From positions 1 through 40,305 of the IMG/VR virus record IMGVR_UViG_3300040801_001804: a stretch of 40,305 nt of DNA, one strand, 5' to 3'. This document shows, one piece after another, positions 3,455 to 28,620 of the stretch. Within the stretch, counting starts at the first letter, position 1. Every line of letters begins with the position of its first letter. The stretch is from a virus. A program made the translations under genes and the position numbers. A model generated the notes under the pieces. The model was not told the origin of the DNA. It made no database searches and saw nothing but the letters and a program-made list of their open reading frames with translations.

Positions 3455-4653
3455 CTAACCTTTTGATCTATTGTCATTGAATCAGGAATAAGTTTTTCTG
3501 TTGGCTGAATAGTCACGCTTGAAACTGGTGAATTAGTGTTAAAAGAAACTAAGTCGTTTGTCCCACTAGGGCCATATAAGCCAAGAATATAATTATTAGC
3601 ATCGTCTCTGTTAAAGCCTGTGCCAATTGGTAAATTTCTTAAATAATCAGCCATAGCATCTGTAATGAGCTTGCTATCGCTTTGAAGTGTCGCAAAATTA
3701 GGGCCACCAGCATTTAACACAAAAGAGCCATCCCAGCTTAAAGCAATTGCTGTAGCACCCTGAACGTCAACCGCTACACCACAAGCTCTTACTGGCTCTA
3801 GTGCTTCTAAAACAGAGTCAATTAAAGCCTCTGAGCTTTGACCGTTCTCATCGGCAATATAAGCAATTGGGTAAGGTATTCTAAATGATTGCGCTCCAGC
3901 TAGTATGCTGTCATTACCAGTATCGTAATCAATAACAATTCTTTCTCTTTCTATTAATGTAACAATTGAAACACCAGAAACAGCCAATATTGCACCTTCA
4001 ATAGCAGCTTTTGTTGCGCCAGCAAGTGCCTTAACTCTTGATCTAATTGTTTCTCTATAATCTGCATCTGATTCAGCATTTTCACCACCAGCACCAGAAG
4101 CAGGGTTAGTTACCGTTACCGATGAATCAGTAAGCGTTGAATCAACAACAGAAATAGCACCAGCATTAACATTGCCAATCGTGCCAGCGATTTCGCATTG
4201 TGCCTGAGCTGAAATAGTTAATCCTGTTAGTAAAACGTCTTCAATTGTTTGAAAAAGAATTTCATCGCCGTTTGCGTCTTTTTCAGTTTTTACAACTGTA
4301 CCAGTAGGTATTAGCACGTTGCCAGCGTCTGTATTTGCTCTGCTAAAGGTTAAATCAACAGTAGCAGGGTTAGCTTGTGGTCTGGCAAAATCATCGCCAT
4401 AGTGGTCAATAGCAAGCCTTTGAAGATCATCTGTTGAGCCTGTTATTTCTGGCCCATGTGCAGTCTCGAAAAAAGTCTTTTTAAATTCAGAAATTGTTAA
4501 TTCTTGATTTTCGTTTGCAGCAGTAGCTAAAGCACCGCCGATAATATCTAGCAATGAGCCTTCATTAAAATCAGATAGCTCAGGGTCACGACTTTTTACC
4601 TCATCGGCAAAAATCTGCAATAATTCGCTAGGCGTTAATATTCTTGTTGACAT
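3445..4653 (-). CDS. Baseplate J-like protein (wedge)
   Basis: This 402-residue protein has the layout of the baseplate J / T4 gp6 family. It has an N-terminal helix pair (PSELLQIFADEVKSRDPEL, then GSLLDIIGGALATAANENQ). The core contains GTVVKTEKDANGDEILFQT followed by AGTIGNVNAGAISVV and AESDADYRETIRSRVKALAGAT. The last two segments are hallmarks of the family, which builds the wedge ring of contractile tails. It sits between the gp25-like wedge gene (one-base gap) and the tail protein I-like gene. Confidence 0.9.
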   Translation of the reverse strand: MSTRILTPSELLQIFADEVKSRDPELSDFNEGSLLDIIGGALATAANENQELTISEFKKTFFETAHGPEITGSTDDLQRLAIDHYGDDFARPQANPATVDLTFSRANTDAGNVLIPTGTVVKTEKDANGDEILFQTIEDVLLTGLTISAQAQCEIAGTIGNVNAGAISVVDSTLTDSSVTVTNPASGAGGENAESDADYRETIRSRVKALAGATKAAIEGAILAVSGVSIVTLIERERIVIDYDTGNDSILAGAQSFRIPYPIAYIADENGQSSEALIDSVLEALEPVRACGVAVDVQGATAIALSWDGSFVLNAGGPNFATLQSDSKLITDAMADYLRNLPIGTGFNRDDANNYILGLYGPSGTNDLVSFNTNSPVSSVTIQPTEKLIPDSMTIDQKVSCS

Positions 4654-5058
4654 TTATACCTCAAGCTCAAACGGATCAAATTGGCTTTCTATAGTATTGT
4701 AGCCTATGGGTCTATAAGATACAAAAATGCGAAACTCACCCGTTTCTGTTTCCCCTTGCTCTATTCTAACACTCGTAACCTCTTCAACAGCAGGGTCTTT
4801 TAAAAATTCTTCGTTTATTATTGTTGCTAAGTTTCTTTGTACTGCCAAGCTTCCAACTCTGCCCTGATATTCTTTTATCCCTACTCCGTACTCTGGTCTG
4901 TGTACTAAAGTTCCCTTGACTGTAATTAATCGGTTAAACAGCCTTTGACGCAAGTTGGCTAAGCCTTTAATTCTAAGCAAATCTCCAGTGTTTGATTTTC
5001 TAAACTCTCCATCATGGCGAATATCTACGCCAATTGCTTGCTCTCTTCTTGTGGTCAT
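4654..5058 (-). CDS. gpW/gp25-like baseplate wedge protein
   Basis: The protein has 134 residues, the usual size for the T4 gp25 / P2 gpW family. The middle (NLRQRLFNRLITVKGTLVHRPEYGVG) carries the conserved pattern of an Arg-rich helix followed by the G-R-P-E-Y-G-x-G type loop. The C-terminal part has the VEEVTSVRIEQ strand. It directly precedes baseplate J and overlaps the small upstream gene by four bases (ATGA). In related phages this protein helps trigger sheath contraction. Confidence 0.88.
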   Translation of the reverse strand: MTTRREQAIGVDIRHDGEFRKSNTGDLLRIKGLANLRQRLFNRLITVKGTLVHRPEYGVGIKEYQGRVGSLAVQRNLATIINEEFLKDPAVEEVTSVRIEQGETETGEFRIFVSYRPIGYNTIESQFDPFELEV

Positions 5059-17778: not shown

Positions 17779-18225
17779 CTAAAAAGGTAAAATCTGGTTT
17801 ATTTCAAAATTAGGGCAAGTTTTACTGGTATCAAAGTGCTTGTGACCAAATATTTGATCGTTAGCAAGCCCATATTTAGCACATAAAGCCCTTAGCAACA
17901 TTGTAGCAGACTTCTTTTGTTCAATCGAAAAGTCCTTTTTACCAGTAAGGCAAATGCCTATAGAGTCGTGATTTTGCCCCTTGGTATGCGCTCCAATCTT
18001 GTTTATTGGCCTACCCTCTTTTACTGTTCCATCTTTCAATATTATGAAGTGATAGCCAATATCTGACCATCCATTTTCTTCAACGTGCCACTTTCTTATA
18101 GTTTCTATGTTGTCATGATGCTCAAGGTCAGAATCTGAGCAATGAACTATGATTTTACGAACTAAAATTGAATCTTCTCTTTTTAGCTTTTCTAACAATG
18201 ATGTTCCAATAGAATTGTTTTTCAT
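17779..18225 (-). CDS. N-acetylmuramoyl-L-alanine amidase (T7 lysozyme-like endolysin)
   Basis: The Amidase_2 fold is clear. It has KIIVHCSDSD (first zinc His), GYHFIILKDGTVKEGRP (catalytic Tyr), the GAHTKGQNHDSIGICLTG core and GHKHFDTSKTCPNFE (zinc His, active-site Lys, zinc Cys), all in the T7 lysozyme order. It would cut the amide bond between muramic acid and the stem peptide at lysis. The frame is open back to ATG 18303, inside the upstream gene; ATG 18225 with GGAAG just upstream is my choice, but the start is uncertain. No signal peptide is evident, so a holin would be needed for release. Confidence 0.88.
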   Translation of the reverse strand: MKNNSIGTSLLEKLKREDSILVRKIIVHCSDSDLEHHDNIETIRKWHVEENGWSDIGYHFIILKDGTVKEGRPINKIGAHTKGQNHDSIGICLTGKKDFSIEQKKSATMLLRALCAKYGLANDQIFGHKHFDTSKTCPNFEINQILPF

Positions 18226-18571
18226 GGACTTCCACAACCTCATAAATTTCTTCATTGATGAAATAATAAAGTTCTTCATTGTCTTTTTTCGATGTGCAGT
18301 CAATATCTGTTTTTAATGGATATTTTGGCTTAGGAAGCAATTTAATAATTAAATCAGCCTTCCTCTGCATACCGCCTTTATCGTTGCTATATGTTTGGTC
18401 TATGCCTTCTAACCTTGGCGTGGGGCTTATGTACTCAACAGAGTCCACAAATTCCCCTTCTCCAAGCCTCTCACCTGACCAGACTCTTTTAAAAATTCCG
18501 ATCTTGTGAAGCACAATACCAGCATCATTTAATGCCTCAAGTGCGCAGGAAGCAATATCGCATTTATTCAT
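18155..18571 (-). CDS. Head-tail connector / head-closure candidate
   Basis: The 138-residue protein is encoded two genes after the capsid protein, where head-completion and stopper proteins lie. The central part (ISPTPRLEGIDQTYSNDKGGMQRKADLIIKLLPK) and the strand pair EEIYEVVEVHEKQFYWNIIVRKAKKRR are reminiscent of head-closure beta barrels. The 3' end overlaps the amidase reading frame by about 70 bases. The family assignment is positional. Confidence 0.5.
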   Translation of the reverse strand: MNKCDIASCALEALNDAGIVLHKIGIFKRVWSGERLGEGEFVDSVEYISPTPRLEGIDQTYSNDKGGMQRKADLIIKLLPKPKYPLKTDIDCTSKKDNEELYYFINEEIYEVVEVHEKQFYWNIIVRKAKKRRFNFSS

Positions 18572-19244: not shown

Positions 19245-20150
19245 TTAAGCACTAACTAAAGTCTTAACACCACCAGCTCTTAGGTAGTCAGATGCAATTT
19301 CTTTATGGAATGACTTAACAGCATACCACTCGTTTGATGTAACAACGATCTCACGAGTAAGAACGTCTTTATCATCATCAAGCTCAATGTCTTGCTTCAT
19401 CATTAGGCCATAAGAATCTGCTTTGTGAAAGTGTGTAAGATACTCGCCTGCGGCAGTACCAGCGTTAGCATCAACACCGTTTGGAGTAGTATCTACAACA
19501 ACGATTGCCATGCCAAGAAAACGCCCCATGAATCCTTCAACCCAAGCCATTGGGTCGTTAGCGTCAGCTTTAAGGAATCCTGAACCACTATCATTAATCA
19601 TGTCTAAATAAACACGACTGTGCATGAAACATACTTCTGCTTCTTGGAACTTGTCACCAAAAGCAGTCATTCTAGCAGCGTTTAATACTGAAATAGACAT
19701 TTTAGCTGGAACTACTGCTGGCGTTCCATCTTCAATGTTAGCAACTGCTGTAATTTCAGTGTTTAAATCACCGTCAACTTTTTCAGCATGAACTCGTGCC
19801 ATTTGACGTTGAGCTTCTGCCATGATTCCAGCCATTGAATCTGCTGACTTTTTGAAAGATTTTTTAGTAAAAGAAACTGCTTTACCAACTTCCTTAACAG
19901 TAGCGTTAAAGCTATCGTCAGTAAGTGCATCTGGAGTAAGAGCTGCTGTTTCTAAAGGCTCTTCTGCTGCACCAATCTTACTATAGTAAGGAAAGTTGAT
20001 TGTAAGCCCTGAACCTTCTGCTTGCAACGTGTTGTCACGAATAGCAAAAGCCCCATAGACTAATTTTTGATCGAAATAAGCTCTGATATGGTCTGACCAT
20101 ACCTTCGGCTCAAATAGAAAGTCACTTGATTCTGTACCACCAAAAGCCAT
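19245..20150 (-). CDS. Major capsid protein (HK97 fold)
   Basis: The 301-residue protein follows the scaffold gene and precedes a strong terminator. It has the order expected of HK97-fold shells: an N-terminal arm (MAFGGTESSDFLFEPKVWSD), an E-loop region near NFPYYSKIGAAEEPLETA, a spine-helix region SADSMAGIMAEAQRQMARVHA, and a P-domain/A-domain end (GEYLTHFHKADSYGLMMKQDIELDDD). N4-gp56-like coat proteins share this layout. No protease gene is seen, so assembly would use the separate scaffold without cleavage. Confidence 0.85.
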   Translation of the reverse strand: MAFGGTESSDFLFEPKVWSDHIRAYFDQKLVYGAFAIRDNTLQAEGSGLTINFPYYSKIGAAEEPLETAALTPDALTDDSFNATVKEVGKAVSFTKKSFKKSADSMAGIMAEAQRQMARVHAEKVDGDLNTEITAVANIEDGTPAVVPAKMSISVLNAARMTAFGDKFQEAEVCFMHSRVYLDMINDSGSGFLKADANDPMAWVEGFMGRFLGMAIVVVDTTPNGVDANAGTAAGEYLTHFHKADSYGLMMKQDIELDDDKDVLTREIVVTSNEWYAVKSFHKEIASDYLRAGGVKTLVSA

Positions 20151-20171: not shown

Positions 20172-20933
20172 TTACTTTAACATTCTTTTCTTTGCGGCTT
20201 CGGCAAACAATTTGTTGTATAGGTCTGGGCTATCCTGTCTCAATTTTGTCTTCTGAACTAAGTTCATGTTGGCAAATTGCTCTACGGTAACTCCTGCTGT
20301 CTGCTCTGGGTCTTTTCTGTCGCCATCTACGCTAGAAGTCGCCATTGCAGTATTCCCACCAACAAGCTTTGCTTTACCAAGAAGCTCGTCAAATAGCTCG
20401 TCGCTGATTTCTTCATTTTCTCCCAGCGATTCACCTTGTTGACCAATTAGGAATTGTAAATATTCCGCTTGATCTTTGTTAAGCCCATTCTCGACTGCAA
20501 CCATCAAGACTGCGTTTTGAAAAGCTAAGTTATCGCTCTGGTGGCTAAGGACGTTTACCTGATCTTCTAGGCTCATCTCGTTTTCGTCTTCAATTCCCAA
20601 AGCTGATTTCAGACCTTTCTCTAACTGAGTCATTCGGTCTTCAATCGTTCTTGCCTTAGTGCGACGTTCTGCATTTTCGCTTCTAAGGTCTTTTATATAT
20701 TCTTGCACCGATTCTGGAAGTTCGCTAAGGTCAACTTTGTCACTTCCTTTCGGGCTTTCTTCTTGTTTTTGTGACTCTGGAGCTTGTGCTGCCTGTGCCC
20801 CTTGTCCAGCCTGTGTGTTGTCTTCCCAACTTCTGCCTTGGCTGTCTTTTTGAGCTGGTGCCCCTGCTCCTGCTGATTCTGTACCATCAGCAACCTGATT
20901 AAATTTTAACATAAATCTCTCATTTCTTAACAT
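20172..20933 (-). CDS. Capsid scaffolding protein
   Basis: This 253-residue protein is acidic and helical, directly upstream of the capsid gene. The N-terminal 80 residues are rich in Gln, Gly and Ala (disordered); a coiled-coil segment (VQEYIKDLRSENAERRTKARTIE) follows near residues 80-115. The end is basic (LFAEAAKKRMLK), as in other scaffolds that bind the coat through the C-terminus. ATG 20933 has AGGAG six bases upstream. Confidence 0.85.
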   Translation of the reverse strand: MLRNERFMLKFNQVADGTESAGAGAPAQKDSQGRSWEDNTQAGQGAQAAQAPESQKQEESPKGSDKVDLSELPESVQEYIKDLRSENAERRTKARTIEDRMTQLEKGLKSALGIEDENEMSLEDQVNVLSHQSDNLAFQNAVLMVAVENGLNKDQAEYLQFLIGQQGESLGENEEISDELFDELLGKAKLVGGNTAMATSSVDGDRKDPEQTAGVTVEQFANMNLVQKTKLRQDSPDLYNKLFAEAAKKRMLK

Positions 20934-20946
20934 ATCGTTACTCCTA

Positions 20947-21780
20947 TCAATTATCCCATTCCTTAGAATAAGGAACTATTATACTTCTATCGTTTGGTCT
21001 GTCTGGCGGATTCATAAAAACCCGTTCTTTACCTCTAAAATTGTATTTAAACGGCTTGTCAATGTCCACCACAAGATCAAGGCTTTCAGCTAGTTTTGAG
21101 TCTTCGCCCGTCCTTCCATCCATAGGGTGAATAAGCGTCTTTTTTAGTTCAGGAATCAACCCTGAATCTCTTACGTTTATCATGCCCTCATTCTTGGTCA
21201 TGTTGTAAATATTATGAAGCTCAGTCCTTGTGATTCTTAAAATCTTCCATTGCTGAAGCCCAACTGCATCGACCATTCTTCTAATTGTTGTATTTCTTGG
21301 CTCTGATGAAAGAATTGCATATTGTAGCTCTCTTTCAATCGTTGCCCTTTGCTCTGCTGTGTATGCTTTCACCGATGCCATATAGCTATTAACTAAATAG
21401 TTTTTACTTTGCAATGCGGTAATTATTTCATCCACTGGAATCTGTCTATTTATCCCCTCAAAGCGTTTAGAGAATACCCTGATCTCTTTACCTAAATCCT
21501 CAATTGACTGCTCAGAAACAAGGTCAGAGCTTTCTAGCACTTCTCTTCTCGCCCTTTCTTCAGTCGCCGACAAAATAACCTCTGACTGCTGTAACGCAAG
21601 CGTCAAAGATGCCTGAGTAAACGAACCTTGCTCAGCTAAAATTAATTGCTGCTCAAGTCTCTGTGTAGCTTCCTTGAATACTCTACCAAGCTTCATAGCT
21701 TCGCTTTTCTCAAGACTGACAATCCTATTAATGTTTCTTTCGACAACTTTTAAACTATCGACTTTATCGGTAAAACTCAT
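20947..21780 (-). CDS. Mu F-like minor head protein (SPP1 gp7 family)
   Basis: The 277-residue protein has a helical N-terminal region and a C-terminal Mu F domain: ILRITRTELHNIYNMTKNEGM, then LIHPMDGRTGEDSK, and the end motif FMNPPDRPNDRSIIVPY. This R-T-E ... D-x-R-T ... P-P-x-x-P-N order defines the family, though the usual Cys residues are replaced. Such proteins are few per virion, near the portal, and are needed for DNA packaging or ejection. It overlaps the last tagged gene by four bases. Confidence 0.87.
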   Translation of the reverse strand: MSFTDKVDSLKVVERNINRIVSLEKSEAMKLGRVFKEATQRLEQQLILAEQGSFTQASLTLALQQSEVILSATEERARREVLESSDLVSEQSIEDLGKEIRVFSKRFEGINRQIPVDEIITALQSKNYLVNSYMASVKAYTAEQRATIERELQYAILSSEPRNTTIRRMVDAVGLQQWKILRITRTELHNIYNMTKNEGMINVRDSGLIPELKKTLIHPMDGRTGEDSKLAESLDLVVDIDKPFKYNFRGKERVFMNPPDRPNDRSIIVPYSKEWDN

Positions 21781-22463
21781 TTAAGCCTGTCAATTATTGC
21801 TCTAATTTGATTATTTCTTTCTTCTTTATTCATTTCATCAAAAAGGGATAACTGCTTTCCTTTTTTCATGGATTTTACGTTATACGCCCTTTTTGACTTC
21901 ATTCTTGCAGCCTTAAACTTGCCAATGGTTCTTTTGGTATTGCTCATGCCCTTCACTTCGACTTTCTTGAATACCTCGGCAATGCTTTTGCCACCCTTTA
22001 CCCCAGAAATACGACCAAAGGCTATAGCTCCTATAACTGGTGCTGCTGATGCAAAGAATGAAGATATTTCATTTGTTTCGCTTCCTGCATCAATTATATC
22101 CTCAGCAGCCGAAGCAGTAAAAATAGAAGCTGCTGCGGTTCCAAGGCTCAAAGCAAGTCTTGATCGTGACTGAAGTTTTTTTCCTTTAATAAAAAGCTCA
22201 GCCGCCTGCCTTCTATCTGCGTTAGCTTTAACGCTTTTTAAATTAGGAAGTAACTGCATTGCACCCCTTCTTAAAGATGATGCTCTGAACGCAGACTCAG
22301 CAGAGTTTTGTATCCTTCTTGCAACACCTACAGAGCTGACTGTTAATCCAGCCGCAACTCCAGCCTTTGCAATGCCTTTTTTGACGCTTTTATCGTCTTT
22401 AACTTTAATAGGAACAACTCTACCGTTAATCATTCTAAATGTTATTTGTCTGTTATCTTTCAA
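21777..22463 (-). CDS. Tagged membrane-active-looking protein 5
   Basis: The 228-residue basic protein begins QITFRMINGRVVPIKVKDDK, a divergent copy of the tag shared by five neighbours. After the tag come a small-residue hydrophobic stretch (GIAKAGVAAGLTVSSVGVA), a second near residues 103-118 (LALSLGTAAASIFTASAA) and a third (ISSFFASAAPVIGAIAFG, about 132-150), then a Lys/Arg-rich end. Such helices could insert into the host membrane during DNA ejection, or the protein could be an internal head protein. It overlaps its neighbours by 11 and four bases. Function is inferred from tag and context. Confidence 0.7.
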   Translation of the reverse strand: MKDNRQITFRMINGRVVPIKVKDDKSVKKGIAKAGVAAGLTVSSVGVARRIQNSAESAFRASSLRRGAMQLLPNLKSVKANADRRQAAELFIKGKKLQSRSRLALSLGTAAASIFTASAAEDIIDAGSETNEISSFFASAAPVIGAIAFGRISGVKGGKSIAEVFKKVEVKGMSNTKRTIGKFKAARMKSKRAYNVKSMKKGKQLSLFDEMNKEERNNQIRAIIDRLK

Positions 22464-22914
22464 GCATTAACCTTCCAAGAACCTGAGAATTGCCCTTGCT
22501 TTTCTTAGCTGCCCTTCTTGCTGCTGCCTTTGAAGCCTTTTTCAAAGAATCTTTTATGGCCTTTCCTTTATTGTATTTAAACAAAGCAATACCAGCAAGT
22601 GCGCCACCAGCCAAACCAGAAAAAGACTTGGCCAAGCTTCCACCAATTTCGTCTTTTATCTTATCGCCAATTGTTCTGTTTGGGTCATAAAATCTTTTGT
22701 ATGCCGTATATGCTCCTGATGCTAATGAAGCACCAGCAAAAACTGAAGAAACTTTAGGGCTTTTTATGAAACCAACCGTACCAGCACCAGCAGCCGCACC
22801 TGTTAGCGCATCCACCTTGGCCAAGCTCATAGGCTTCTTCTTTTCTTTTTTATCTTTCTTCTTTCCCTTAATAGGTATAATTCTGCCGTTCTTTCTAATG
22901 AATCTTGTTTCCAT
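22453..22914 (-). CDS. Tagged glycine-zipper protein 4
   Basis: The 153-residue protein begins METRFIRKNGRIIPIKGKKK. The 16 tag residues from R4 are identical to those of the 103-residue protein two genes upstream. Two Ala/Gly-rich segments (LTGAAAGAGTVGFIKSPKV, about 36-55; SFSGLAGGALAGIALF, about 95-112) have G-x3-G zipper spacing typical of membrane-inserting peptides. The end is a basic Ala/Lys helix (KKASKAAARRAAKKSKG). It may be carried in the head and inserted into the cell envelope. The molecular role is unknown. Confidence 0.7.
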   Translation of the reverse strand: METRFIRKNGRIIPIKGKKKDKKEKKKPMSLAKVDALTGAAAGAGTVGFIKSPKVSSVFAGASLASGAYTAYKRFYDPNRTIGDKIKDEIGGSLAKSFSGLAGGALAGIALFKYNKGKAIKDSLKKASKAAARRAAKKSKGNSQVLGRLMLER

Positions 22915-22916
22915 AA

Positions 22917-23660
22917 TTACTCCTGTCCACCTTTTGAAAGGTCTTTTGCAATTCTGTTAATTCCAGCATATTGCATACCTGTCCCAACTGCTCTTGCAAG
23001 ATACGTTGAATAAGCAGGGAATGTTCTTATAAGGTATTTTGCTGCTGCGGCCCTTCCTGATCTGGCTTTTACTGCTCTTGATGCAAAATAATTAGCCTCA
23101 GCCTCTGATACAACATCAGTAAAAGGTCTAACTGTTCCTATTCCAATATTCATATTAAAAACTGTACCAAGCTTTCCTTTTTTGACCAACTGCTCACTTC
23201 TAACCGTTATTGACCTTAAAAACCTATTCATTGTTCCTTTTTTTCTTGTGGCTGCTAAATGGCCCATTTCATGAAGCAAAGTATCTTCGTTAGCCATTGT
23301 TCCAAGAATCACTGACCTTCTTTTTAGCCCAACACCTAAAATCGGTGCTAGTGCTTCGCTGGTCTGCCTTCCAACATAATTACTATTGTAAGCAAACGCC
23401 CCTTTTAAATTGGGATTATTGAATATATCTGGTCTTCCTGCTTTATCGTAAAACTTTGCATAATTCTTTTTAAAAGCACTTACGCTAGTTCTTGGCTTAC
23501 CCTCAGCTCTTTTACTTATGGCGTTTCCAAGCCCCATAGCACCAACATTAACACCAATGCCACCAACTAAAAGCTCACCACCAGAAAGCTTACGCTTCTT
23601 CTCCCTAATAGGAATAACCTTGCCATTCTTCCTGATAAATCTGACTTTCTTCTTTTCCAT
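22917..23660 (-). CDS. Tagged zinc metallopeptidase-like protein 3
   Basis: The 247-residue protein starts with the tag (VRFIRKNGKVIPIREKK). Residues 126-136 read EDTLLHEMGHL, a zincin HExxH motif at 130-134. E186 or E188 in SEAEANYFASR could be the third zinc ligand. A Gly-rich hydrophobic stretch lies near residues 27-46 (GGELLVGGIGVNVGAMGLGN). AGGAAAAGGC precedes the ATG. It could cleave host or virion proteins after injection, or process head proteins. The motif is seen; the substrate is unknown. Confidence 0.75.
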   Translation of the reverse strand: MEKKKVRFIRKNGKVIPIREKKRKLSGGELLVGGIGVNVGAMGLGNAISKRAEGKPRTSVSAFKKNYAKFYDKAGRPDIFNNPNLKGAFAYNSNYVGRQTSEALAPILGVGLKRRSVILGTMANEDTLLHEMGHLAATRKKGTMNRFLRSITVRSEQLVKKGKLGTVFNMNIGIGTVRPFTDVVSEAEANYFASRAVKARSGRAAAAKYLIRTFPAYSTYLARAVGTGMQYAGINRIAKDLSKGGQE

Positions 23661-23703
23661 GCCTTTTCCTAAATAGAGCTTGAATTATTTTTTTTCTTTT
23701 CCA

Positions 23704-24015
23704 TTACTTGCCTCTCTTGTTCAAAACAATAGCTGTCTCACCATCAACTGTTGACTCAACTCTAGCATTTAGCTTCTTGAGCAGTTTGTATGTTTTCATA
23801 TCGCCTTTAGAGTTAAAGTCAATGCCTAAAAACTTTCTTGGCTTAAATGTCTTTGCTTTAAAAATAGATTTCTCTGAAGGGTATTTTGTCTTCAATGGCT
23901 TATTAACAACTCTCAGCCTTTCGCCGCTTATTGGAAGCTTTATAGACTTCTTGCCTTTTATTGGAATAATCCTTCCATTTTTTCTGATGAATCTTACGTC
24001 TTTATTTTTTTGCAT
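23704..24015 (-). CDS. Tagged small basic protein 2
   Basis: The 103-residue protein carries the tag from residue 8 (RFIRKNGRIIPIKGKK). The rest is basic, with FKPRKFLGIDFNSKGDM and a C-terminal alpha/beta piece (TYKLLKKLNARVESTVDGETAIVLNKRGK). The TAA of the 26-codon gene upstream overlaps this ATG (TAATG), so translation is likely coupled. No enzymatic motif is seen. It may be an internal head protein; the tag and position are the only functional hints. Confidence 0.7.
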   Translation of the reverse strand: MQKNKDVRFIRKNGRIIPIKGKKSIKLPISGERLRVVNKPLKTKYPSEKSIFKAKTFKPRKFLGIDFNSKGDMKTYKLLKKLNARVESTVDGETAIVLNKRGK

Positions 24016-24095
24016 TACTTACCCTTTTTCTTGCCTTTGCCTTTTCCCTTATTGCTCTTTGTGCGCTGTCCTCTCTCTGGTAATTTACTTGGCAT
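24015..24095 (-). CDS. 26-residue basic microprotein within the tag cluster
   Basis: An ATG at 24095 has AGGAG five bases upstream and starts MPSKLPERGQRTKSN, ending in a Lys/Gly run (KGKGKGKKKGK). It overlaps the kinase-like gene end by 11 bases and its TAA shares a base with the next ATG. Clean ribosome site and coupled stop argue that it is translated. The charge suggests binding to DNA or RNA. Alternatively it is only a coupling leader for the next gene. Confidence 0.6.
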   Translation of the reverse strand: MPSKLPERGQRTKSNKGKGKGKKKGK

Positions 24096-24966
24096 TTTTA
24101 CTCCTAACTATAAACTTGTTAATTCGACGCAATTGCTCTCTAGTGAAATTATACTCATCAAAGCCACCTTCCACAAAATCAAAAGTTCCTGCATCTATAA
24201 CCATTGGCTTTTTACCTTTTTTAAGAACATTTTTACTATGAAGATCATCTACAAGAATATTTGAACCACCTAGAGCATTTTCTACCTTTCTTGAGAAAAC
24301 ACCTCTTGCGGAATCGTTCATTTTAAATTCGCCGCCCTTTACAATATCCTGAACAATAAACTTACTTTTTGAAGTTTCAACAACGAATGTCTCTGGAGCA
24401 AGCTTCTTCTGATTAAGAGAAATTAGAAACTTTCCAGCCTTTGAGTTATCAGAAAAAGAAACTGATCCCCACTGTTTGTTATACTTGCCCCTTGGAATCT
24501 TTACTGCTTTTCCTTTGGCTTTAATAACAACATTTTCAATACCTTTTCCAAGTATATTCTTATCTTTCTGTAAATCTCTTATTCGCTGATAATACTTGTT
24601 CTTAAAAGAAGCAAGCTCATTAACTTCTTTAATGTTGTATAACTTTGACTTGGGCTTAGTAATCTTTTTTCCGTTAAAACCCTTATAGGTAACAGTGTTC
24701 TTGTCGGCTATCTTGTTAATCTTTTTTGTCAATTTACCTATCAAGCCTTCATATAAACTTATCTGTTTACTTCTAAACTCAGACTCAGGGCCATACTTTT
24801 TAACCTTAGATAACGACTCTCTTACTGCTTGAATTGAACTTATTCGCTTATTGGAAAGATTAGTTCTTGCGCTTGCAGCTTTACGCAATGCCTTACGCCT
24901 AGCTGACTTGTCAAATATGGGAATTAGTCTCTTTCCCTTCCTTATGAATGTTTTTGGCTTTAACAC
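24085..24966 (-). CDS. Tagged protein kinase-like protein 1
   Basis: The 293-residue protein starts with a variant tag (TFIRKGKRLIPI). A kinase-like fold is visible in order: a glycine-loop-like LGKGIENVVIKA (139-150), AVKIP with the candidate ATP Lys K156, a hinge region KFIVQDIVKGGEF, the catalytic loop DLHSKNVL (241-248) and VIDAG (256-260) in place of DFG. The key Lys, Asp, Asn and Asp are all present, as in the kinase domains found in phage polyvalent proteins. The protein could phosphorylate host proteins after injection. It directly follows the portal gene. Confidence 0.7.
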   Translation of the reverse strand: MLKPKTFIRKGKRLIPIFDKSARRKALRKAASARTNLSNKRISSIQAVRESLSKVKKYGPESEFRSKQISLYEGLIGKLTKKINKIADKNTVTYKGFNGKKITKPKSKLYNIKEVNELASFKNKYYQRIRDLQKDKNILGKGIENVVIKAKGKAVKIPRGKYNKQWGSVSFSDNSKAGKFLISLNQKKLAPETFVVETSKSKFIVQDIVKGGEFKMNDSARGVFSRKVENALGGSNILVDDLHSKNVLKKGKKPMVIDAGTFDFVEGGFDEYNFTREQLRRINKFIVRSKNAK

Positions 24967-24977
24967 TCAATTATCCC

Positions 24978-26444
24978 TTAAAAGAACCCAAATCCGCCTA
25001 ACTGTGGCTGATTATTTACCTCAAGAATTTCCTGCTCAATGTCTTCAATGCCAAATTCTTTAGCAAGCCATGTTGTCGCTGTTCTTCTTGATATTAAGTT
25101 TGCCTGTGAGGCTTGTGCTGCTGTTGATACTTTCTGCTGAAGGTCTGCCATGGTCATTGGGAATACTGGCGGCCATGTGAAAACTATATCTAATGACTGA
25201 ACCTTATAGTTTTGTGGTATTTGAAAGCCATTAAATTGCATACCCTGCTTAGCCATAAGAAGAACTGTTGCAATCATCTTCTGCATTAGCTTCATCATGC
25301 TTTTTTCAACATAAGGACGATATTCGTCAATAAGGTCAAGCAGTGGGCCGTGCATAACTTCCATAGCCTTGGCTGACTGAGCTGAGCCAACGATTTTCTC
25401 AGGGTCAAGCATTACAACTCTGGTAATATCTGCAACAAGCTGTCTATAATTCATTCTCTGTTCGCTTGCTACCTGAACGCCACTCATAGAGGTTTCAAGG
25501 TAACTTGCATCGCCATCACGCCCAAGATTCCAAGAAGACATAGAAGATTTAATAAGATTTTCCATCTCATCTGTGTCCATCCCTTTTAAAATTAGCTGTG
25601 GCTCTTGATTATATTTAACTGCTTGATCTGTCTGAGAAAGTGAATAGTTAAATGCGTCAAAAAAGTCTAAGTTTTCATATATTAATGAGCATCCATCAGG
25701 TTTATGAATATCTGTTCCGATCTTAAACCATTCACCCTGAACAAAGCCTAAGTTATGCTGAGCTGTTGCAGAAACTTTAAATTCTGGCTCTGAGCCTTCT
25801 TTGCACTCTGGATTATTGTAAAGAATGTCTTTTTCTTTACCTAGCTCAAGCCTGTACCATTTTTTCTTAGGATTACCCTTTTCGTCTTTGTCTTCAAGGT
25901 CATCAAATACATATTTAATCTCAAGCTTTTCTAGCTCTCCAGTATCGTCAAACTCTGGATAGCAGTAATTAGGATTGTAAATTTCCAGCATTGGAAATCC
26001 GTTAGTTAGTTTAAATCTGGCAAATGCTGAACCATGAGAAGGCAAATATCGTGCAACATCAAGCATTTTGGCTTTCATGTTGGCTTGATTAATAAGCAGT
26101 TTTAATAATTCTTCTGTTAGTGGGTCTTGCGCAATGTTAAGTGAAGGAAATACTCTAGGCCCAAGAAGTTTTGATCCAACTGTATCCTGAATACGCTTAG
26201 GAAGATTATATATAATAAGAGGCTTACGCTTACGAATAGGAAAAGGATTCCCAGCACCGTCTGTAGCATCCCAAGCAACATGATTGTCATACTGGCATGA
26301 CTTTAGGTATTTATCTACTTTGTCTAAGTCATCCCGTCTATTGGATTTTTTCTTATCATTATAAGCTGGTGAAATATTTCCAAGCTGTTGTGAAGCCCTT
26401 CTCTTATTTCTCGATAGCTTAAAAACCCCGTCAAAGTAAGGCAT
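24978..26444 (-). CDS. Portal protein
   Basis: The 488-residue protein directly follows the large terminase. It has the SPP1/gp6-like portal pattern: ARYLPSHGSAFARFKLTNGFP, then a wing with LEIYNPNYCYPEFDDTG, a central stem region (NLDFFDAFNYSLSQTDQAV) and a C-terminal helix set with YVEKSMMKLMQKMI. It would form the dodecameric ring at the vertex that takes up DNA and joins to the connector. Length and gene order fit. Confidence 0.85.
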   Translation of the reverse strand: MPYFDGVFKLSRNKRRASQQLGNISPAYNDKKKSNRRDDLDKVDKYLKSCQYDNHVAWDATDGAGNPFPIRKRKPLIIYNLPKRIQDTVGSKLLGPRVFPSLNIAQDPLTEELLKLLINQANMKAKMLDVARYLPSHGSAFARFKLTNGFPMLEIYNPNYCYPEFDDTGELEKLEIKYVFDDLEDKDEKGNPKKKWYRLELGKEKDILYNNPECKEGSEPEFKVSATAQHNLGFVQGEWFKIGTDIHKPDGCSLIYENLDFFDAFNYSLSQTDQAVKYNQEPQLILKGMDTDEMENLIKSSMSSWNLGRDGDASYLETSMSGVQVASEQRMNYRQLVADITRVVMLDPEKIVGSAQSAKAMEVMHGPLLDLIDEYRPYVEKSMMKLMQKMIATVLLMAKQGMQFNGFQIPQNYKVQSLDIVFTWPPVFPMTMADLQQKVSTAAQASQANLISRRTATTWLAKEFGIEDIEQEILEVNNQPQLGGFGFF

Positions 26445-26447
26445 ATA

Positions 26448-28127
26448 TTATCTCCCGACCATTGCATTTAGTCCTGTTATCGCCCCTTTATCATATCGAC
26501 CATTTACAAGATTCCATAGCATTTCTGTTGCGTCTGGTGCATCGTCGTGGTCTTCCTTCGGGAATCCATCGAACTGTGTAAAATATTCTTCTGATAAAGT
26601 TTCATTAAATAAAATCCAACCATGAGAAATTTTCGGCTCTAGTGTATGAATCCTTTTGATCTTATTCTCGGTGTTTATAATATCATAAAAGGGTATCTTA
26701 ATCTTTTTCTTGAGCCTCTTCTCTCTTTGCTTACGTTCTTCTAATATATTAGGCAATAAGAGGTTTCTATACAAGTTAGTCTCAACAGCAAACTTTTCGT
26801 ACTCATATTGCTCATGTAGGTCAAAAATTCGCTGAATATAGTCTGTTGGTGGCATACGCTTAACAACATCATTTACAACAAATAAACGCCCCATACTATC
26901 AGTGTAACCTGTAATTAATGCTGTGTAGTCACCTTTTTTGTTTCTTTTGGCTGGCTGCTGTCCAGTAGAAGGGTCAATGACTCCGTATGCTCTTAGCTCT
27001 TTCCAGCTTATTGTTACGCCTGATTTCTTAATATATAGCCCGTCTTTAGTCTCTCTAAAGTAGTGAAATTGCTCACGATCAAACAAACACTCTTCATCTG
27101 AGATAGGTTTATTCATCTTCTCTTTATAAAATGATCTTCTGCCCGTTTCGATCAATTCCTTCATCAAGTAGTAGTAAGGCTCTTTGTCTGGCCATAAAAC
27201 TGCTGCGCCCTTGTCCATTTCTTCTTTGTTGGATAGATAAAATTGCTCAGCCTTTTCCTGTCTGTTCTCATCGTCTAAATTGGTATAAATGGCTTTCCAA
27301 TCTGCCCATAATTCCTGATTTTCAGCCCACGACTTTACTGCTTGATAGGATTTTGACTCGTATGAAGGATTTTTGCTTGTTTTTACCAATAAGGCTTTTG
27401 GGTGAAGAACTGTTCCGATAAATTCAATATTTGTCTTTGTGTTACCAATTTTGGTCACTACGTCATTATACCAATCCTCGAAGCCATCTCGTATAGCCTC
27501 GTTATAAACTTTTGTGCTGTGTTCAATATCATCAAGAACAATTTTCGATGGACGATACGCCCCAAACCGAATCCCTCTAATTTCCGTACCCGAACCAAGC
27601 GCAATAAAACGGCATTGATGCTCTTCGCAAGATGCAATAAAATCAGTTTCTCCTGCCTTCTTATTAAGAAAGCCAATACCATAAAAATTGATAAGCTCAT
27701 CGTTACTAAGTAGTTCAGCTCGAATATCCTTAAGCTTTTGCTTTGCCTGTGGCTCGGTGTTGGAGATAATGACAATGAATCTCTCCAGTTTGTAGCAAAG
27801 GTCATGAATCGGCTTAACGAAAGCTGAAATTGTTGATTTAGCATAACCTCTAGGCGCAATCCGCAAACGGCGAACTGATCGCTCATCGAATCTATACGCT
27901 TTGAATAAGTCCTTATGAAAATCATTGAAGCTTTCTGTGGCATAGTGCGGAAAAAACATAGAAGTGAAAAGCTCAACGTCTGAACCCATACGATAATATA
28001 ACAGGTTATCCAATGCAGCTTGCGCATCCTTACTCCCTGTCTTCAACTGCTCCAGCAAGCCTTGATAACATTCCTGAAATTCTGTCGTAGTGAGATTCCC
28101 TATTTCGCTTAGGTGGCTCTTGTTCAT
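26448..28127 (-). CDS. terL: Terminase large subunit
   Basis: The 559-residue protein has the ATPase and nuclease parts of large terminases. Walker A is RIAPRGYAKST (near residues 90-100). Walker B is KIVLDDIEHST (near 195-205). The RNase H-like nuclease has AYGVIDPSTGQQ with the first Asp near residue 390, and the acidic C-terminal motif DHDDAPDATEMLW. It would pump and cut DNA. The 5' end overlaps the small subunit by about 100 bases. ATG 28127 is used (TTG 28130 is adjacent); a later start is possible. Confidence 0.92.
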   Translation of the reverse strand: MNKSHLSEIGNLTTTEFQECYQGLLEQLKTGSKDAQAALDNLLYYRMGSDVELFTSMFFPHYATESFNDFHKDLFKAYRFDERSVRRLRIAPRGYAKSTISAFVKPIHDLCYKLERFIVIISNTEPQAKQKLKDIRAELLSNDELINFYGIGFLNKKAGETDFIASCEEHQCRFIALGSGTEIRGIRFGAYRPSKIVLDDIEHSTKVYNEAIRDGFEDWYNDVVTKIGNTKTNIEFIGTVLHPKALLVKTSKNPSYESKSYQAVKSWAENQELWADWKAIYTNLDDENRQEKAEQFYLSNKEEMDKGAAVLWPDKEPYYYLMKELIETGRRSFYKEKMNKPISDEECLFDREQFHYFRETKDGLYIKKSGVTISWKELRAYGVIDPSTGQQPAKRNKKGDYTALITGYTDSMGRLFVVNDVVKRMPPTDYIQRIFDLHEQYEYEKFAVETNLYRNLLLPNILEERKQREKRLKKKIKIPFYDIINTENKIKRIHTLEPKISHGWILFNETLSEEYFTQFDGFPKEDHDDAPDATEMLWNLVNGRYDKGAITGLNAMVGR

Positions 28128-28620
28128 CAAACATACCTATGTGTTTTGCTATTAATTCTAGTGCTTTCATTTTGTTGTGCATCTTAATGCCTATTGCTGT
28201 CCCACCTTCGCCTTTTGTTTCCTTTATGGATTCTATCGCTCCAGTGTTAAAAGCATATTCGCTAGGACGCATATAAATGCCCCCTGCATCCCATGAGGCA
28301 AAATCCCTCAAGTCACTAAAGGCAACCTTGTTAAGCTCTTCTAAGACTCTCTCAGCAGTCGTGGCAGCCTTCTCCTTACGCTTTTCAAAATGTTCCTTAA
28401 TATATACTGATATAATAGGGTGGCGCAGTAAATCATTTCCTGTTGTTGTTGCTGATGCTTTACTGTATCCAGCTCTTATTGCTGCCTGAGTAGCGTTAAA
28501 ATCTCTTAAGTATTCAAGTATGAAAAGCTGTTGCTTTGCGGTTAGGTCATCTTGAGTAAGGTCTTTCTGCTTAGGCTTTCTTGTTTTTTTCTTTACTTTC
28601 TTTTTCTTGTCTTGCGTCAT
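28030..28620 (-). CDS. terS: Terminase small subunit (Terminase_2 type)
   Basis: The 196-residue protein has a Lys-rich leader and then the family's DNA-binding domain: LTAKQQLFILEYLRDFNATQAAIRAGYSKASAT, followed by LLRHPIISVYIKEHF. This helix-turn-helix pattern binds the packaging site and recruits the large subunit. A middle helix set (RVLEELNKVAFSDLRDF) and an acidic end follow. It is the first gene of the late block, with a candidate extended -10 promoter about 40 bases upstream. Confidence 0.88.
   Translation of the reverse strand: MTQDKKKKVKKKTRKPKQKDLTQDDLTAKQQLFILEYLRDFNATQAAIRAGYSKASATTTGNDLLRHPIISVYIKEHFEKRKEKAATTAERVLEELNKVAFSDLRDFASWDAGGIYMRPSEYAFNTGAIESIKETKGEGGTAIGIKMHNKMKALELIAKHIGMFDEQEPPKRNRESHYDRISGMLSRLAGAVEDRE

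Follow-up and report, generated by a model that had tools for sequence, protein, structure and literature searches.

A terminal peptide shared by neighbouring head genes

What is one short peptide doing at the start of several otherwise dissimilar proteins encoded side by side in a phage head-gene block? This question is raised by IMG/VR virus record IMGVR_UViG_3300040801_001804, of which positions 1 to 40,305 were analysed (40,305 bases, hereafter the window). A preliminary description of this DNA noted that five neighbouring proteins, encoded between the portal gene and a MuF-like gene, share an N-terminal tag of the FIRKNGRIIPI type, and proposed that the tag sorts its bearers, for example into the capsid and from there into the host, like the T4 capsid-targeting sequence (CTS) but unrelated to it in sequence. 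The five accessory open reading frames (ORFs) were confirmed in this position, and the proposed function is supported, though not proved, by the confinement of the tag to head-gene slots and by the presence of recognisable effector enzymes in the tagged cargo. Beyond that description, the tag was also found at C-termini and recurs throughout a phage clade. The peptide is probably an end-independent beta-hairpin tag that loads cargo proteins into the phage head during assembly, the cargo then being injected and acting in the host.

The first Phe of the motif lies at residue 7, 9, 8, 5 and 9 of the proteins starting at 24966, 24015, 23660, 22914 and 22463, respectively. A profile built from relatives, with the window's own tags excluded, was scanned over all six frames and scored these sites, in the same order, 19.8, 47.7, 45.9, 43.6 and 35.1. 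No other site exceeds -1.7, so that the window holds exactly five tag sites, and 100 shuffles of the window frames yielded no site above 12. The most divergent of the five is the 24966 copy, which lacks the NG turn. Two of the peptides are identical (FIRKNGRIIPI) and differ at 8/33 nucleotides, so that the conservation is of the peptide and does not reflect a fresh DNA copy.

The consensus of the terminal peptide is V-x-F-[IR]-R-x-x-G-[RK]-[IV]-[IV]-P-I-[RK], in which F0, R2, G5 and P9 are near-invariant, positions 7, 8 and 10 are hydrophobic, and positions 6 and 11 are basic. Two forms coexist: F-R-x-x-x-G predominates ahead of the portal gene and immediately ahead of the MuF gene, and F-[IV]-R-x-x-G predominates downstream of the capsid gene. 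AlphaFold models of two window proteins place the tag in paired strands (residues 6-11/14-19 and 6-10/13-17) with the turn at NG or GK. With alignments of just 8 and 2 sequences behind the models, this is suggestive of a beta-hairpin.

Distribution of the tag

Four DNA-pattern scans of viral contigs returned 46, 31, 23 and 42 stretches, amounting to 85 distinct stretches. Within one clade of myophages of approximately 40-46 kb lie 82/85, a stretch being assigned to the clade when its contig holds homologues of the window head or tail genes or belongs to such a contig; the other three (L051, L218, L221) are chance matches in frames of 30-39 residues. A control scan of the viral contigs with the reversed peptide returned 0 stretches, and a motif scan of 84,980 prokaryote species genomes returned 12, all chance-like and none resembling the tag system. 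For gene comparison, 22 contigs were retrieved nearly whole. Homologues of TerL, portal, MuF, scaffold, capsid, sheath and baseplate proteins are all or mostly present on them, and their portals are 41-47% identical to that of the window; judged by these shared genes, the tag-bearing phages are one family-level myophage clade. Profile sites scoring above 20 number 100 on 23 contigs versus 0 in shuffles. A sample picked by portal similarity, without regard to the tag, had tags at 67 of its 79 loci, and all 221 tags found there lie on the portal strand at a protein end, with none internal. Two distant outgroups (L207, L208) carry no tags.

Relatives were recovered from the viral contigs with a portal alignment; the window portal as a single query found none. 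Among cultured phages, searches by portal, TerL, sheath and major capsid protein (MCP) gave only distant relatives, with at most about 33% identity, and tblastn with the tag peptides gave nothing, or one match at E=3. The bare tags had no match in PHROGs. A host search with the capsid alignment against 398 + 296 genomes of two phyla, a weak test, gave one distant capsid match, in a genome in which the tag and other clade genes are absent. A literature search with thin coverage of subscription journals found neither the motif nor a clade of this kind mentioned.

Genomic slots and terminal placement

The preliminary description had proposed a motif search for clustering beside portal genes; the matches cluster there and nowhere else. 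On 23 contigs, 103 tags were mapped, with circular contigs read across the join for slot assignment. All 103 lie on the late strand: the TerL-portal interval holds 11, the portal-MuF interval 74 (counting tags past the portal where a contig ends), and the capsid-sheath interval 18. Elsewhere on these contigs there are none, and tail, baseplate and lysis-end late genes are never tagged. The gene directly upstream of MuF is the commonest tagged position, and almost all members with a complete stretch carry a tag on it.

Over all loci there are 218 distinct tagged sites, 183 of them N-terminal. A further 27 lie no more than 12 residues from the stop and 7 lie 13-22 residues from it; the remaining site is N-terminal with a mis-called start. 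Both ends are tagged in 11 proteins. One two-ended family (G002:27169-27708, G015:42484-43047, L056:3340-3885, L059:4977-5531 and kin) has a partly decayed C-terminal tag (FRxIDGKVRPx).

This placement bears on the possibility that the shared ends are mere remnants of duplicated genes or of a recombination site, with no function at the protein level. Tagged genes do stand in tandem arrays, and some of their cores are related, but unrelated folds carry the tag at the N-terminus, the C-terminus or both, and where one genome holds identical peptides, their coding sequences differ at 7-8/33 nucleotides. Such an origin is very improbable, and gene duplication as the sole cause was rejected.

Cargo behind the tag

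Once the tag is removed, the proteins form more than 70 groups with no link between them, and tagged content differs strongly from member to member of the clade. ART-PolyVal, an ADP-ribosyltransferase (ART) domain, was matched above the curated cutoff in tagged proteins of three relatives (E 2.9e-11, 2.6e-14 and 1.6e-17) and in none of the window proteins. GNAT acetyltransferase matches above the curated cutoff occur in two tagged proteins of relatives. By motif and alignment, eight tagged frames with HE[ILM]GH appear metalloprotease-like. Tagged protein 3 of the window belongs here: the F, R, G and P of the tag, the HE-GH and a distal E are invariant in 8 homologues. One HExGH protein also has a sub-threshold match to Tox-MPTase4 (E 0.0026). 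Putative kinase-like proteins carry DLHxxN and D-x-G, and L158:4060-4956, a homologue of tagged protein 1, has a weak Kinase-PolyVal match below cutoff (E 0.0072). Weaker leads are ATP-grasp and NlpC/P60-like proteins, and Gly/Ala-rich proteins are likewise among the cargo.

An extended leader, MSVKLSRYVFRR.., is common to one kinase-like protein and two ARTs, as if modules were exchanged while the leader stayed in place. An extended leader of the pattern M-S-[VT]-K-L-[SA]-R-[YV]-[VI]-F-R-[RK] is shared by unrelated effectors (Table 1), which suggests swapped modules behind a constant leader.

Confinement to head-gene slots might also be expected if the tag docked its bearers at the head or neck for structure, decoration or assembly, making them virion proteins that are not delivered to the host. 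Every tag does lie among head genes, and the near-constant tagging of the gene just before MuF is as for a near-core head part. ADP-ribosyltransferases, acetyltransferases, kinase-like proteins and metalloproteases are, however, unlikely decoration parts, and the strong variation in tagged content also speaks against this explanation, which we consider unlikely.

Charge and the candidate receptor

The tagged cores are basic, with a median of +0.14 per residue versus -0.01 for untagged proteins (p 1e-46, a statistic that ignores relatedness). Their Gly/Ala content is 25% versus 14%, and hydrophobic segments are not enriched by a simple measure (15% versus 16%). The scaffold is acidic in 21/21 homologues, with a median net charge of -13; the portal and capsid are likewise acidic. 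An acidic scaffold is the leading guess for the tag receptor.

Basic tags and cargo could alternatively bind nucleic acid or membrane, as would be expected if the tag were an intracellular address (assembly site, nucleoid or membrane) or a stability signal for late proteins with no role in the virion. Against this stand the tail, baseplate and lysis-end late genes of the same genomes, which go untagged, and the consideration that packaging is a more sensible fate for late effector enzymes than retention in a dying cell. This alternative is also unlikely, slightly more so than docked head parts.

Proposed mechanism

Loading into the head explains best why a terminal, position-independent peptide should occur on unlike effector enzymes and only in head-gene slots. 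The tag would be a short beta-hairpin docking peptide, functional at either protein end and bound by a prohead component common to the clade (scaffold, MuF, portal or capsid interior). This component would enclose the basic tagged proteins together with the DNA, and the proteins would then exit via the contractile tail and act in the host. The enzymes (ADP-ribosyltransferase, acetyltransferase, kinase-like and metalloprotease) may be early effectors, and the Gly/Ala-rich basic proteins may be DNA-associated or membrane-entry helpers. The wider reading, that this hairpin is a clade-wide, universal address label for the capsid behind which unrelated effectors are swapped, with an arsenal of ADP-ribosyltransferase, acetyltransferase, kinase, metalloprotease, DNA-binding and membrane-entry proteins, is held less firmly, as somewhat probable.

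Several observations weigh against head loading and injection. Two clade members (L145, L170) carry no tags across a complete portal-MuF stretch; with at least two members untagged in the stretch seen, the system is not essential. T4 internal proteins are just mildly basic, which leaves charge suggestive only. Most of the cargo has no recognisable domain, and the collection searched holds no cultured clade member. The structural models are of low confidence (mean predicted local distance difference test score 67.7 for the zincin model and 50.8 for the kinase model), and Foldseek with the zincin model gave no significant match; hence no fold is claimed.

The head-gene block of the window

The late block lies on the minus strand in the order TerS, TerL, portal, five accessory genes, MuF-like, scaffold-like and MCP (Table 1), and the sheath, tube, tape measure and baseplate genes follow downstream of the MCP gene on the same strand. 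Judged by sequence alone, the gene at 17779-18303, between the capsid and tail genes, appears to encode an amidase-type endolysin.

Table 1. Coordinates of the tagged genes, their neighbours in the window, and proteins of other contigs with a common leader
Feature	Position	Strand	Remarks
Terminase large subunit	26448..28130	-	phrog_38 E 1.8e-81; upstream border of tagged zone
Portal protein	24978..26444	-	phrog_64 E 8e-20; SPP1_portal E 6.5e-8
Tagged protein 1, 293 residues, kinase-like (DLHSKNVL ... DAG)	24085..24966	-	tag FIRKGKRLIPI 24948-24916
Tagged protein 2, 103 residues, function unknown	23704..24015	-	tag FIRKNGRIIPI 23991-23959
Tagged protein 3, 247 residues, HExGH...E metalloprotease-like	22917..23660	-	tag FIRKNGKVIPI 23639-23607
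Tagged protein 4, 153 residues, Gly/Ala-rich, basic	22453..22914	-	tag FIRKNGRIIPI 22902-22870
Tagged protein 5, 228 residues, basic, Ala-rich, directly upstream of MuF	21777..22463	-	tag FRMINGRVVPI 22439-22407
MuF-like minor head protein	20947..21780	-	phrog_115 E 4.6e-4
Scaffold-like protein, acidic; candidate tag receptor	20172..20933	-	phrog_233 E 2e-5
Major capsid protein	19245..20150	-	phrog_544 E 6.6e-31
Proteins with leader M-S-[VT]-K-L-[SA]-R-[YV]-[VI]-F-R-[RK]	L181:6454-7194, L047:3536-4279, G003:27682-28611 (L090), G002:29572-30225 (L088), G017:32674-33579 (L120)

MuF homologues are present in 21 tag-bearing contig ORF sets. They stand alone, without effector fusion, with a median length of 277 residues over the 21, the same as the window MuF. 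In the homologues of L145, L147, L170 and L205 an internal F-x-G-A-[IVL]-[VIL]-P-I-N bears a faint resemblance to the tag and falls below the tag score. The clade member L147, which carries no tag, has a different shared N-terminal leader on the proteins in the same two slots (1767-2555 and 4111-4689; SRGGKIIGYFKTGRPIY and SRGGHIIRYTRGGNPVY, pattern SRGG[KH]II-Y...G-P-Y), one of which is a HELGH protein; the replacement of one tag by another would fit. A similar motif lies near the N-terminus of a 2923-residue protein in the unrelated contig L209.

Comparison with known systems

The closest parallel is found in T4, where Ip1-3, injected anti-restriction proteins, have no homology besides a leader that directs their packaging (PMC12373910; PMC3012670), and 10 residues of IPIII suffice for capsid targeting (PMC9026906). 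The likeness lies in a short terminal peptide common to unrelated, variable proteins of one phage; the propeptides of T4 Alt are inferred to be similar to the CTS of IPI-III. In contrast, IPII and IPIII start with MKTYQEFIAEA and score at best -26.6 and -9.3 with the tag profile, and the tag of this clade occurs at the N-terminus, the C-terminus or both. The T4 CTS is removed by a prohead protease after L/I-x-E; neither a gp21-like protease nor another protease family was matched among the window genes from portal to MCP. The tag seems to function like the T4 CTS, a view that is supported, not proved, but it is not a member of the T4 system: its sequence is unrelated, as the preliminary description had foreseen, and its C-terminal use differs.

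Polyvalent proteins are encoded by phages near portal-type packaging genes and are thought to be packaged (Iyer et al. 2017, PMC5512222). The same kinds of effector occur in the tagged cargo (ART-PolyVal and, weakly, Kinase-PolyVal), but polyvalent proteins are multidomain chains, whereas those of this clade are short, mostly single-domain and individually tagged; no multidomain match was found in the tagged proteins of the window (103-293 residues). MuF-fused effectors likewise belong to the portal/MuF part of the head genes (PMC5512222), and differ from the separate tagged effectors and stand-alone MuF seen here. In the extracellular contractile injection system (eCIS) known as the Photorhabdus virulence cassette (PVC), an N-terminal signal peptide brings payloads of various kinds into an injector of phage origin (PMC11495950). 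A terminal peptide on diverse payloads is again common to both, but the PVC loads its tail tube via the Pvc15 ATPase, whereas this clade consists of complete phages with a DNA-filled head, tags at either end and head-gene slots.

The lack of any common sequence makes injected phage effectors difficult to detect. With a tag to mark them, the cargo of an entire group of phages can be read off the sequence, here more than 70 groups, most without a known domain, and if it is a universal address label, the tag itself would be a generic finder for injected phage effectors. If the proposed loading function is true, the logic of T4 would have a second, independent representative in this clade. We know of no other loading tag of this logic that works from either end, and such end-independent function makes the peptide a candidate for directed protein loading into phage heads. 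It also makes testable the standing question of what decides which proteins enter the prohead.
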